Assembly: GCF_001543895.1 (NCBI RefSeq)
Contig: NZ_JYIJ01000019.1
Location: forward strand, 1,054,001 to 1,118,000
Direction of reading: 5' to 3'
Origin: Carbonactinospora thermoautotrophica
GTDB lineage: Bacteria > Actinomycetota > Actinomycetes > Streptomycetales > Carbonactinosporaceae
DNA: 64,000 bases
Shown here in pieces: positions 41,894-45,410 of the stretch (position 1 is the stretch's first letter; every line of letters starts with the position of its first letter). Under the pieces are notes generated by a model. The model saw only the letters and a list, made by a program, of their open reading frames with translations, searched no databases and was not told the DNA's origin. A program made the position numbers and the translations under genes.

Positions 41894-42376
41894 ATGACCT
41901 TCAAGGTTGGCGAGACCGTCGTCTATCCGCACCACGGGGCTGCCCGTATCGAGGCAATCGAAACACGCACGATCAAGGGTGAGGAGAAGACCTACCTGGT
42001 CCTCAAGGTCGCCCAGGGCGACCTCACCGTGAGGGTTCCGGCGGACAACGCTGAGTTCGTCGGTGTCCGTGACGTGGTGAACCAGGAGGGCTTGGACAAG
42101 GTCTTCGAGGTCCTGCGGGCCCCGCACACCGAGGAGCCGACCAACTGGTCGCGGCGCTACAAGGCGAACCTGGAGAAGCTCGCGTCCGGCGACGTCATCA
42201 AGGTCGCCGAGGTGGTCCGTGACCTGTGGCGGCGAGAGCGTGAGCGGGGTTTGTCCGCCGGTGAGAAGCGCATGCTCGCGAAGGCCCGCCAAATCCTCGT
42301 GAGCGAGCTCGCGCTGGCGGAGAACACCAACGAGGACAAGGCCGAGGCCCTCCTCGACGAGGTCCTCGCCTCTTGA
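41894..42376 (+). CDS. carD: CarD, RNA polymerase-binding transcription factor
   Basis: A 160-residue essential regulator that binds the beta subunit of RNA polymerase and stabilises the open complex, chiefly at rRNA promoters. The N-terminal Tudor-like domain [20 protein letters not shown] is followed by the helical DNA-binding part with [17 protein letters not shown] and the tryptophan in [21 protein letters not shown] precedes the ATG by a short distance. Matches the usual place before ispD. A hairpin terminates it. Confidence 0.95.
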
Positions 42377-42419: not shown

Positions 42420-42512
42420 GCGTGACCGGCGTGTTTCGGCTCGTGCGCCCTGCCCGCGCCGCCGATCTGGCCGGGCGGTAAGGTGCCGCTTGATGACGAG
42501 GCGGTGCAGGGC

Positions 42513-43970
42513 ATGAGGGCGATTGCTGTCGTGCCCGCGGTCGCGGCGGCGCCGGTCACCACCGCGCCAGCCGCCACCGCGGGTCTGGCCGTTTCCCACG
42601 AACCAACCTCCGGCCTGGTGCCGTCGGCCGGCGACTCCCAGGCCGTCGGCCAGCCGCTCGGGGGACAACCGCTGCTGGTCCACGCGCTCCGTGCGGTGAC
42701 CGCCGCCGAGCTGGTGTCCGCTGTGCTCGTACCCGCGCCGTCGGTCGCCGCGGTGAAGGCCGTCCTCGACGCGGCCGGCCTGGACACGGCCCGTGCGTGG
42801 TCCGCGGGGGAGACCCGCGCCGCCTGCCTGGCCGCGGCGCTGCGGCTGTTGCCGTCCGACGCCGATGTGGTCGTCGTGCACTCTCTCGCCTATCCGCTGA
42901 TCCCGCCGTCGCTGGTCGACGCCGTGATCCGCCGCGTGCGGGACGGCGCCGACGCCGCGGTGCCCGTCGGTCCGGTCACCGACACGATCAAGCGCCTGGA
43001 CGCCGGCGGCGCGGTGGTCGCGACCGTGCCCCGCGACGAGCTGGGCGTGCTCCAGGCGCCGTACGCGTTCCGCCGCGACCTCGCCGAACGCCTGTTCGGC
43101 GATCCGACCGGGTCGTCCGACGAGATCGAGCGCGCCCTGCGGTCCGGCGTCAAGGTGGCTGGGGTGCCGGGCACGGCCAGCGGCTCCCCGGTCCGTGCCG
43201 GCGCCGACCTGGCCTGCGCCGAGCCATCGTCCGGCCCAGCCGGGACCGCGCCCGCCGCCGCTGTCGTGCTCGCCGGGGGCCGGGGCAGCCGGTTCGGCGC
43301 CGACCGCAACAAGGCGTTCCTGCCCGTCGCCGGCCGGCTGGTCGCGGCCTGGTCGCTGCGTGCGTTCGCCGCCCTGCCCGAGATCGGCCGCCTGGTGTTC
43401 GTGGTCCGCGCGGAGGACCGTGACCTGGCCGAGCGGATGCTGGCCGAGGACCTGCCCGGCGTACCCGTCGACCTCGTCACGGGCGGGGCGACCCGGCACG
43501 GCTCGGAGTACAACGCGCTGCGCCACCTCGCCCCGGCGATCCGCGCCGGTCAGGTCGGGTGCGTGCTGCTGCACGACGCCGCCCGCCCGGTCGTCGACCC
43601 CGCCCTGGTCCGTCGCGTCCTCGCCGCGGCCCGCCGGCACGGCGGCGCCCTGCCCGGCCTGCCTGCCGAACGCCTGGTCCCGGTCGGCCCGGACGACACG
43701 GTCCACGGCGGGGTCCAGCCCGACCTGGTCCGGGTGCAGACCCCGCAGGCGTTCCAGGCCGTGCCGCTGCTGGCCGCGTACGAGGCGGCTGAGCGCGACG
43801 GGTTCGACGGCAGCGACACCTCGGCGTGCGTCGAGCGGTACGCCCCCGGGCTGCGCGTCCAATGCGTCCCCGGCGACCCGCGCAACCTCAAGGTGACGTA
43901 CGCGCCCGATCTGCTGCTGGCCGAACGCTTCTTGGCCGGTCAGGACACCGCCGCGAAGGCTACCGGGTAG
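42513..43970 (+). CDS. ispD: IspD with duplicated cytidylyltransferase domain
   Basis: 2-C-methyl-D-erythritol 4-phosphate cytidylyltransferase of the non-mevalonate isoprenoid path, but about 485 residues instead of 230-270. Two IspD-like domains are in tandem. The second (about 247-485) has the working set: LAGGRGSRFGADRNKAFL, GGATRHGSEYNAL, LLHDAARPV and RNLKVT. The first (about 1-235) keeps PVTDTIKR and overall shape but lacks the glycine loop, reads HSLAYP where HDAARP belongs, and lacks the late lysine. It looks catalytically dead. A start at GTG 42483 would add ten residues; ATG 42513 matches the IspD opening RAIAVVPA. Confidence 0.85.
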   Translation: MRAIAVVPAVAAAPVTTAPAATAGLAVSHEPTSGLVPSAGDSQAVGQPLGGQPLLVHALRAVTAAELVSAVLVPAPSVAAVKAVLDAAGLDTARAWSAGETRAACLAAALRLLPSDADVVVVHSLAYPLIPPSLVDAVIRRVRDGADAAVPVGPVTDTIKRLDAGGAVVATVPRDELGVLQAPYAFRRDLAERLFGDPTGSSDEIERALRSGVKVAGVPGTASGSPVRAGADLACAEPSSGPAGTAPAAAVVLAGGRGSRFGADRNKAFLPVAGRLVAAWSLRAFAALPEIGRLVFVVRAEDRDLAERMLAEDLPGVPVDLVTGGATRHGSEYNALRHLAPAIRAGQVGCVLLHDAARPVVDPALVRRVLAAARRHGGALPGLPAERLVPVGPDDTVHGGVQPDLVRVQTPQAFQAVPLLAAYEAAERDGFDGSDTSACVERYAPGLRVQCVPGDPRNLKVTYAPDLLLAERFLAGQDTAAKATG

Positions 43971-44449
43971 GTCACCATCCCGCGCTGGTGCCCGGCGTAC
44001 CCGGCGAGCGGCCTGGCCTGGTACACCTCGTCCGGCACCTCCCACGGGGAGCGCAGCCCGTGCCGGGAGGCGGGCTCGAACCCGAACCGCCCGTAGTACC
44101 GCGGGTCCCCGAGCACGACGACGATCCGCTCGCCGGCCGCCTCGGCCTTGTCCAGCGCCGTGCGCACCAGCGCGCTCCCCACTCCCTGCCGCCGCCGGTC
44201 GGGCCGTACCGCGAGCGGCGCCAGCGCAAGCAGCGGCTCCCCGCCCGCCGTCGCGCGGGTGAGCAGCACATGCCCGATGATCTCGCCGGCCGCCTCGGCG
44301 ACCAGCGACAGCCCGGGCAGCCAGGCGTCCGAGGCGCGCAGCGCGTCCACCAGCGCGCTCTCGGCCTCCCGCCCGAACGCGGCCGTGTGCACCGCGCGGA
44401 TCGCCGCCTGGTCACCACCCCGTTCGAGGCGAATCCGGAAGCGCTCCAT
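43940..44449 (-). CDS. GNAT-family N-acetyltransferase
   Basis: A 169-residue GNAT. The acetyl-CoA loop LAPLAVRPDRRRQGVGSAL is clear, followed by VVLGDPRYYGRFGFEPA, which places it with YhbS-type acetyltransferases. The target is unknown. Its 3' end overlaps the 3' end of ispD by 31 bases on the opposite strand, so transcription is convergent with no terminator between. It begins at ATG 44449. Confidence 0.83.
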   Translation of the reverse strand: MERFRIRLERGGDQAAIRAVHTAAFGREAESALVDALRASDAWLPGLSLVAEAAGEIIGHVLLTRATAGGEPLLALAPLAVRPDRRRQGVGSALVRTALDKAEAAGERIVVVLGDPRYYGRFGFEPASRHGLRSPWEVPDEVYQARPLAGYAGHQRGMVTYPVAFAAVS

Positions 44450-44927: not shown

Positions 44928-45410
44928 ATGGCAACTCCCCGGGTTGGCGTGGGCGTCGACGTCCATCCGTTCGCCGAAGGGCGTCCCCTGTGGTTGGCCG
45001 GCCTGGAGTGGCCGGGCGAGACCGGCCTGGCCGGGCATTCCGACGGAGACGTGGCCGCACACGCCGCGTGCGACGCGTTGCTCTCGGCGGCGGGGCTCGG
45101 CGATCTCGGCGCGCAGTTCGGGACGGCCGAGCCGGAGTGGGCCGGCGCGTCCGGCGTGGCGCTGCTGGCGGAGACCGCCCGGCGGGTGCGCGCGGCCGGA
45201 TACCAGGTGGGCAACGTCGCGATCCAGGTGATCGGCAACCGACCCAAGGTCGGCCCACGGCGCGCCGAGGCGGAGAAGACGTTGTCAGCGGCGGTCGACG
45301 CCCCGGTGACGGTCGCCGCGACCACGACCGACGGGCTCGGCCTGACCGGGCGCGGCGAGGGGTTGGCGGCGATCGCGACCGCGTTGGTGTACCCGACCAG
45401 CTCTCGCTGA
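44928..45410 (+). CDS. ispF: 2-C-methyl-D-erythritol 2,4-cyclodiphosphate synthase
   Basis: A 160-residue trimeric zinc enzyme of the non-mevalonate pathway. Zinc ligands are visible in GVDVHPF and [11 protein letters not shown], with the substrate loop [13 protein letters not shown] near the end. The length is normal. In many actinobacteria it follows or is fused with ispD; here the two are separated by the GNAT gene and the element copy B, about one kilobase apart. The ATG at 44928 fits the family opening. Confidence 0.94.

Follow-up and report, generated by a model that had tools for sequence, protein, structure and literature searches.

The gene at positions 42483 to 43970 of the window (the whole 64,000-nucleotide stretch of Carbonactinospora thermoautotrophica DNA analysed here) probably encodes the only MEP cytidylyltransferase (IspD) of its genome, in a fused form of a two-subunit enzyme whose halves carry complementary losses and would build one composite active site. 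The C-terminal half (C-half) would bind CTP and supply the catalytic P-loop, R20, K27, D106, R109 and K213 (E. coli numbering); it appears to lack the beta-arm, which each monomer of ordinary IspD extends over the dimer to its partner's MEP site. The N-terminal half (N-half), its own CTP site apparently lost, would lend this arm with T140 and R157. The two halves are proposed to pack like the two monomers of the IspD homodimer, so that a single composite site would stand where the homodimer has two. In other genomes the same two parts are encoded by separate, usually neighbouring genes. That the halves pair physically, that the arm is lent in trans and that the protein has IspD activity is what we infer from the evidence given below.

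Results

A single reading frame with two IspD domains lies between carD and ispF

The features of the locus are as follows.

41894..42376, + strand: carD, the gene before ispD, named by eye
42483..43970, + strand: fused two-domain ispD gene, N-type then C-type domain; 495 codons from GTG 42483, alternative start ATG 42513
42513..43217, + strand: N-type domain, predicted degenerate IspD fold with the beta-arm kept; equivalents of the P-loop, K27, D106, R109 and K213 lost
42879..42896, + strand: HSLAYP, degenerate HDAARP of the N-half
42972..43046, + strand: retained beta-arm of the N-half, PVTDTIKRLDAGGAVVATVPRDELG; the T140 and R157 equivalents are T168 and R184 of P0001
43218..43253, + strand: inter-domain linker
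43254..43940, + strand: C-type domain, by its motifs the putative nucleotide-binding catalytic half
43266..43313, + strand: P-loop of the C-half, VLAGGRGSRFGADRNK; R20 and K27 equivalents present
43572..43589, + strand: HDAARP of the C-half; D106 and R109 equivalents present
43662..43727, + strand: beta-arm lost in the C-half, PAERLVPVGPDDTVHGGVQPDL; the alignment shows neither a T140 nor an R157 equivalent
43890..43892, + strand: lysine of NLK in the C-half (K213 equivalent)
44928..45410, + strand: ispF, named by eye

The first-pass annotation had recognised two IspD domains in one protein, and this is borne out by a single uninterrupted frame with two Pfam IspD (PF01128) matches far above chance. 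At a cut-off of 27 bits the whole protein scored 234.7, the N-half 86.3 and the C-half 153, with E-values of 3.2e-24 and 1.3e-44 for the N-half and C-half searched singly. The best NCBIfam match of the fused protein was the IspD model TIGR00453 (252.9 bits, cut-off 181.3), on which the halves taken singly fell below the cut-off (96.7 and 160.6 bits); the ribitol-5-phosphate enzyme model gave 79.4 bits. The C-half, itself a seed row of the C-type profile, scored 335 bits against it. From codon 228 (43164) to codon 262 (43266, inside the P-loop strand) no in-frame ATG, GTG or TTG is present, and the C-half is thus without such a start of its own.

Gene order is carD - ispD - ispF, all on the + strand, with one opposite-strand ORF between them. 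This ORF (43940-44449, - strand, 169 aa) resembles a GNAT acetyltransferase by eye, lies between ispD and ispF and overlaps the end of ispD by 31 bases. The other IspD-family matches in the genome are two and weak (37 and 30.7 bits), which leaves the fused gene as the sole IspD candidate. Since this only candidate lies between carD and ispF in a genome in which Dxr is present and HMG-CoA reductase was not found, the fused protein would be expected to convert MEP and CTP to CDP-ME.

The two halves retain opposite parts of the active site

T140 and R157 of E. coli IspD are taken here, after the E. coli structure papers, to act in the site of the partner monomer. The E. coli arm (residues 137-159) is described in passages of PMC11770629 as a subdomain that links one monomer to the other and contains the MEP site, and MEP is seemingly contacted by R157 and K213 according to the same passages, one of them a figure legend. 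An excerpt of PMC5099578 names the beta-arm, or beta-meander, as the major contributor to the IspD dimer interface. In a section of PMC3111433, T140 touches the methylerythritol part of the substrate, and replacement of the corresponding T141 of Francisella IspD costs 75% of the activity in T141D and all of it in T141E. The transition state is stabilised by K27 and K213, as stated in a passage of PMC5020098.

In the alignment, the CTP/Mg site (glycine-rich P-loop, R20 and K27) is absent from the N-half and present in the C-half, and the beta-arm with T140 and R157 is present in the N-half and absent from the C-half. Equivalents of D106, R109 and K213 are all found in the C-half; the residues aligned to them in the N-half are S, Y and P. 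The first domain had been described as lacking the glycine-rich loop, reading HSLAYP for HDAARP and having no final lysine, and the alignment agrees, the K213 position not being lysine. The C-terminal copy had been credited with all catalytic signatures. This was too generous: the P-loop, K27, HDAARP and NLK are present, but the beta-arm is lost and no equivalent of T140 or R157 is seen. The C-half has a DDT a few residues beyond the aligned T140 position, so the loss of T140 there hinges on the alignment.

A single-sequence AlphaFold2 model of the whole fused protein was unusable (pLDDT 39.9). The invariant columns of the two-domain alignment (A3) all fall within the C-half, and a predicted model was therefore made for the N-half alone (pLDDT 84.7, pTM 0.82; arm blocks 94-97). 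Its top fold matches are IspD structures, namely those of M. smegmatis (2xwl) and M. paratuberculosis (7kmw_D; Z 26.8, 2.4 A over 205 residues), a likeness to be read together with the canonical rows in its alignment (A4), which may pull the model towards the canonical fold. As predicted, the N-half still has the IspD fold.

Conservation in C-types, N-types and canonical IspD

Residues were numbered on E. coli IspD (NC_000913.3), aligned with 41 C-types, 40 N-types and canonical controls. G16, G18, R20, K27, D106, R109 and K213 are present in 41/41 C-types; none of the 41 has T or S at position 140, and one (G427) has R157. R157 is found in all 40 N-types, T or S at 140 in 39 (27 T, 12 S), K142 in 38 and D139 in 33, with E in the other seven. 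K27 and K213 occur in none of the N-types, R109 in eight and R20 in one; the 40 rows include that of G443, which is a wrong gene and accounts for both the sole R20 and the sole residue other than T or S at 140. D106 is kept in 38/40 N-types and is lost in the N-half of the fused protein. The canonical controls numbered 93, that is, 98 less five Chloroflexi rows (the C-types L147, L148 and L151 and the R20H/K27R copies L152 and L153). All 93 have R20, K27, R157 and K213, and position 140 is T in 88, S in 4 and A in 1.

Conservation of the arm was scored over a window of 25 residues from E. coli 136, the arm having been picked for testing after sight of the first sequences. With the G443 row left out (39 N-types), one of 195 windows of 25 residues is better conserved than the arm window, and that one starts at 133 and overlaps the arm. 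Among the C-types, 193 of 195 windows are better conserved than it. As judged from these alignments, conservation in the N- and C-types is mirror-like, each type keeping the part of the putative active site that the other has lost.

N- and C-type genes are neighbours in many genomes of the class

The C-type profile (A1) splits 34 of 296 class genomes (234.9 bits or more) from the rest (175.2 bits or less). The carriers belong to groups f28 (16), f6 (7) and f27 (6), with one each in f1 (the window genome), f25, f30, f33 and f46; by genus group they make up 14/14 genomes of g48, 2/2 of g109, 7/17 of g13 and 0/8 of g35. In the C-type matches of G550 and G672 a stop falls shortly before the profile end.

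An N-type ORF lies near and convergent to the C-type in 31 of the 34 carriers and is fused to it in one, the window genome. The N-type of G443 is on another contig, between carD and ispF. For the C-type of G427 no N-type partner was found in a genome that is 80% complete, the contig being short. G443 also has a third, degenerate IspD paralogue upstream of its C-type (L244:4316-5065, + strand), in which K27 is replaced by I and both R109 and T140 by F. Convergent N/C pairs are present at all seven named loci L065-L071 (four Mycolicibacterium/Mycobacterium records, Nocardioides silvaticus, a Nocardioidaceae MAG and an actinobacterial MAG), and no canonical IspD was found in the genomes of these loci, two of which (G394 and G395) are MAGs of ~2 Mb and perhaps incomplete. 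Over 38 pairs, the N and C genes overlap or are at most 84 bases apart in 30, are separated by 314-362 bases in six and by 1.6-1.7 kb in two (G432 and G492). At many split-pair loci of the class the N-type gene stands beside a carD whose product is 78-91% identical to the window CarD, and ispF is often near.

No ordinary canonical IspD was found among the 34 carriers. Extra IspD matches of 160 bits in four of them (G550, G606, G465 and G673) were rejected as canonical IspD, the ORFs being IspD-SDR two-domain genes. HMG-CoA reductase was found in none of the 34, and Dxr (TIGR00243) in 28, including the window genome. The six with neither a TIGR00243 match nor an HMG-CoA reductase are f27 genomes of 1.4-2.2 Mb with split IspD (G644, G672, G512, G621, G478 and G598), which perhaps use the DXR-like second type of reductoisomerase.

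A second fused N+C case was not found in the C-type ORFs examined, where the N profile matched only the C domain itself, nor among the matches listed in a search of 391 order genomes with the N-half, long open frames there having been left aside. The first-pass annotation had proposed a survey of other actinobacterial IspD proteins for the same duplication. No other fused form was noticed, and relatives of the first half exist as separate genes beside relatives of the second. It had also named a first half without conservation as part of what would refute its reading. This is not what is seen: relatives of this half are kept in many actinobacteria, and arm-bearing copies stand beside the C-types of Chloroflexi MAGs.

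Partners outside the class show various degrees of loss

From 234 further genomes of the phylum the best 18 new loci were examined, of which 14 are C-type (C profile above canonical profile, arm lost) and four canonical; C-types outside the class are thus present in at least 14 of the 234 genomes. An N-like, arm-bearing gene lies within 4 kb and divergent in eight of the 14 (G782, G772, G831, G792, G731, G695, G752 and G709), and ~8 kb from the C-type in G812. Residues of the partners outside the class were read by eye. In f49 the partners are on a different contig from the C-type (L293-L295; G738, G689 and G857); they keep the arm (DETLK, TVDR) and K213 and have lost the P-loop lysine, with R in its place in G689. 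From these residues they are read here as half-way N-types. Of two f60 genomes, G712 (L296) has a C-type and, on a different contig, a second copy with the arm kept, the P-loop changed and no K27, and G699 (L297) has a C-type and an apparently intact canonical IspD, again on a different contig. The second copies of G699 and G712 resemble two consecutive steps in the decay towards an N-type. Position 140 is A, with R157 kept, in nine partners of f56, f71, f79 and f87, and T in the three f49 partners. As 9/12 partners read outside the class have A at 140, the universal features are reduced to R157 and the arm taken as a unit.

At ten Chloroflexi MAG loci (L072-L081), a truncated N-like frame of 153-164 codons lies directly upstream of the C-type, and all ten frames, searched with a query from L073, keep DT[VC]KE and TV[PL]R. 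In six of them (L072, L073, L076, L078, L080 and L081) an insert that translates to about the pattern P.P..GEG..G precedes the arm, always in the same position, which resembles the insertion of a short repeat element. A full-length second IspD copy is present in 7/7 Chloroflexi MAG genomes (G398-G404; L152, L153 and L161-L165). In each of the seven T140, K142, R157 and K213 are kept and R20 is changed to H and K27 to R. The CTP site of these copies may be weakened or lost; either their active site is of an unusual kind, or they would be a further arm donor in partial decay.

Origins of the two halves and selection on them

In the trees the N-types group with canonical actinobacterial IspD with SH-aLRT 100, and 99.9 after long-branch removal, the second tree omitting 16 of the 112 rows of the first (long branches, near-duplicates and mislabelled rows). 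The C-types form one clade (SH-aLRT 100), joined with the Chloroflexi C-types in the first tree (95). As a single clade the N-types are weak, with a support of 94 that fell to 61 when long branches were dropped, and N may have arisen more than once. An origin by simple tandem duplication of a single gene was rejected on these placements, N going with canonical actinobacterial IspD and C with the arm-less clade at the values given; a clade uniting N and C is the less likely arrangement, though the AU test does not reject it (p 0.152). The first domain had been called duplicated. A second IspD domain is real, but the term is imprecise for halves that group with different IspD clades.

Over seven hand-chosen pairs, dN/dS is 0.10-0.62 for N and 0.13-0.53 for C. 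N- and C-types are under purifying selection. Distances of N and C are correlated (r 0.89 over 39 pairs), of which shared species history alone would give some, and the mean pairwise distance is 0.70 for N-types vs 0.52 for C-types. The simplest story from the trees and the carD - N - ispF position is that an arm-less C-type arrived and that the resident IspD then decayed to an arm donor; we infer this order, and with it the direction and dates of the events.

Discussion

The N-half would be a regulatory or purely structural dimerisation domain if the C-half did all the chemistry and held MEP in another way. We consider this unlikely. It would fit the lost nucleotide site of N, the D106 kept in 38/40 N-types without obvious need and the A at 140 in many N-like genes outside the class. 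The arm with R157 (40/40) is, however, the best-conserved part of N and exactly what C has lost, and mirror-image retention of catalytic-arm residues is not expected of a regulatory domain. The earlier suggestion of a regulatory or dimerisation domain comes close in its second part, the arm being the main dimer interface; as for the first, the evidence (T140 and R157) points to a contribution of the N-half that would be catalytic rather than regulatory. D106, for which a pure arm donor has no obvious need, also counts against the two-part enzyme proposed here, as do G427 (no N-type found, R aligned at 157), G699 with its apparently intact canonical copy, the stop in the C-type matches of G550 and G672, and the A at 140 of most partners outside the class. 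Still less likely is a pair that acts on an alcohol phosphate other than MEP, for example a pentitol phosphate as in TarI. C-types score 127-167 bits on Pfam IspD, below the 197-231 bits of the best IspD of order mates (G026 had none), and coexist with another full-length IspD copy in the Chloroflexi MAGs and in f60. Against another substrate stand the 34 class carriers, which have no ordinary canonical IspD found, Dxr in 28 and HMG-CoA reductase in none; the position of the genes beside carD at many loci, with ispF often near; the NCBIfam scores, far higher for IspD (252.9 bits) than for the ribitol-5-phosphate enzyme (79.4); and the changed R20 and K27 of the Chloroflexi full-length copies (7/7).

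The loss of most catalytic motifs from the N-half and the greater divergence of the N-types (0.70 vs 0.52) would also suit a decaying, functionless remnant of a fusion or assembly accident. This is very improbable, as the N-types are under purifying selection with a small set of near-invariant residues, on which ground a dead remnant was rejected and is largely refuted. N also stays linked to C whether the layout is convergent, divergent, co-directional or fused, and it diverges in step with C (r 0.89, 39 pairs). The fused frame in the window is uninterrupted and has no internal start ahead of the C-half.

Returning to the two-part enzyme, it seems rather probable that, in part of at least two phyla (Actinomycetota and Chloroflexi), an asymmetric enzyme has taken the place of homodimeric IspD, made of a catalytic subunit without arm and an arm-keeping partner without CTP site. 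The actinobacterial partner seems to be the ancestral IspD, passed on by vertical descent and rendered superfluous by the arm-less one. The f60 and f49 partners and the Chloroflexi copies with changed R20 and K27 look like intermediate stages, and the fused chain of the window like an end point.

IspD is an essential enzyme and an actively pursued antibacterial and herbicide target. If the proposal is correct, a heteromeric IspD that needs both unlike genes would operate in 16/16 of the genomes sampled from two genus groups placed with Nocardioides by the tree, and the same dependence would hold in 7/17 genomes of a genus group placed with Mycolicibacterium, and in others. The N gene may then be annotated as a weak or surplus IspD, and inhibitors designed for the homodimer may act differently. 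The system would further be an unusually clear case of reciprocal active-site degeneration in a homodimer, for which apparent intermediates, separate pairs and a fused form all exist.

Comparison with known systems

No report of a two-subunit, pseudoenzyme or duplicated IspD was found in searches of the open-licence PMC literature, and the word 'heterodimer' is absent from the available sections of a 2026 review on the diversity of isoprenoid pathways in bacteria (PMC13001223). The two-part IspD, fused here and split into neighbouring genes in many other genomes, is best read as a new form of IspD. It resembles ordinary IspD (PF01128, TIGR00453) in that both halves are IspD by profile, the N-half also by predicted fold, and in the place of the gene between carD and ispF. 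Ordinary IspD is, however, a homodimer with two identical sites (a passage of PMC11770629), whereas the residues of one site appear here to be divided between two unlike domains.

Fusion of an IspD domain to another domain is also seen in IspDF (Campylobacter jejuni 1w55; NF006899), but there the partner is IspF. In the fused gene described here a second, degenerate IspD domain takes that place, and ispF is a separate gene. The IspD-SDR proteins of four split-IspD genomes (L207-L210; open frames of 508-802 codons) and TarI/TarJ likewise combine an IspD-like cytidylyltransferase with a second domain. The IspD-SDR proteins differ in having a single IspD-like domain with its own P-loop and a second domain that is short-chain dehydrogenase-like by eye; they are probably pentitol-phosphate cytidylyltransferase/dehydrogenases. 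Many order mates have second IspD matches of ~500 aa, similar in length to L207-L210. Enzyme-pseudoenzyme pairs, such as trypanosomal AdoMetDC-prozyme, GMPPA/GMPPB and the subunits of ADP-glucose pyrophosphorylase, keep a degenerate paralogue as the partner of the catalytic one. These pairs belong to other families, whereas in the enzyme proposed here the losses would be reciprocal, the catalytic copy being without the arm, and the halves come from different IspD clades.
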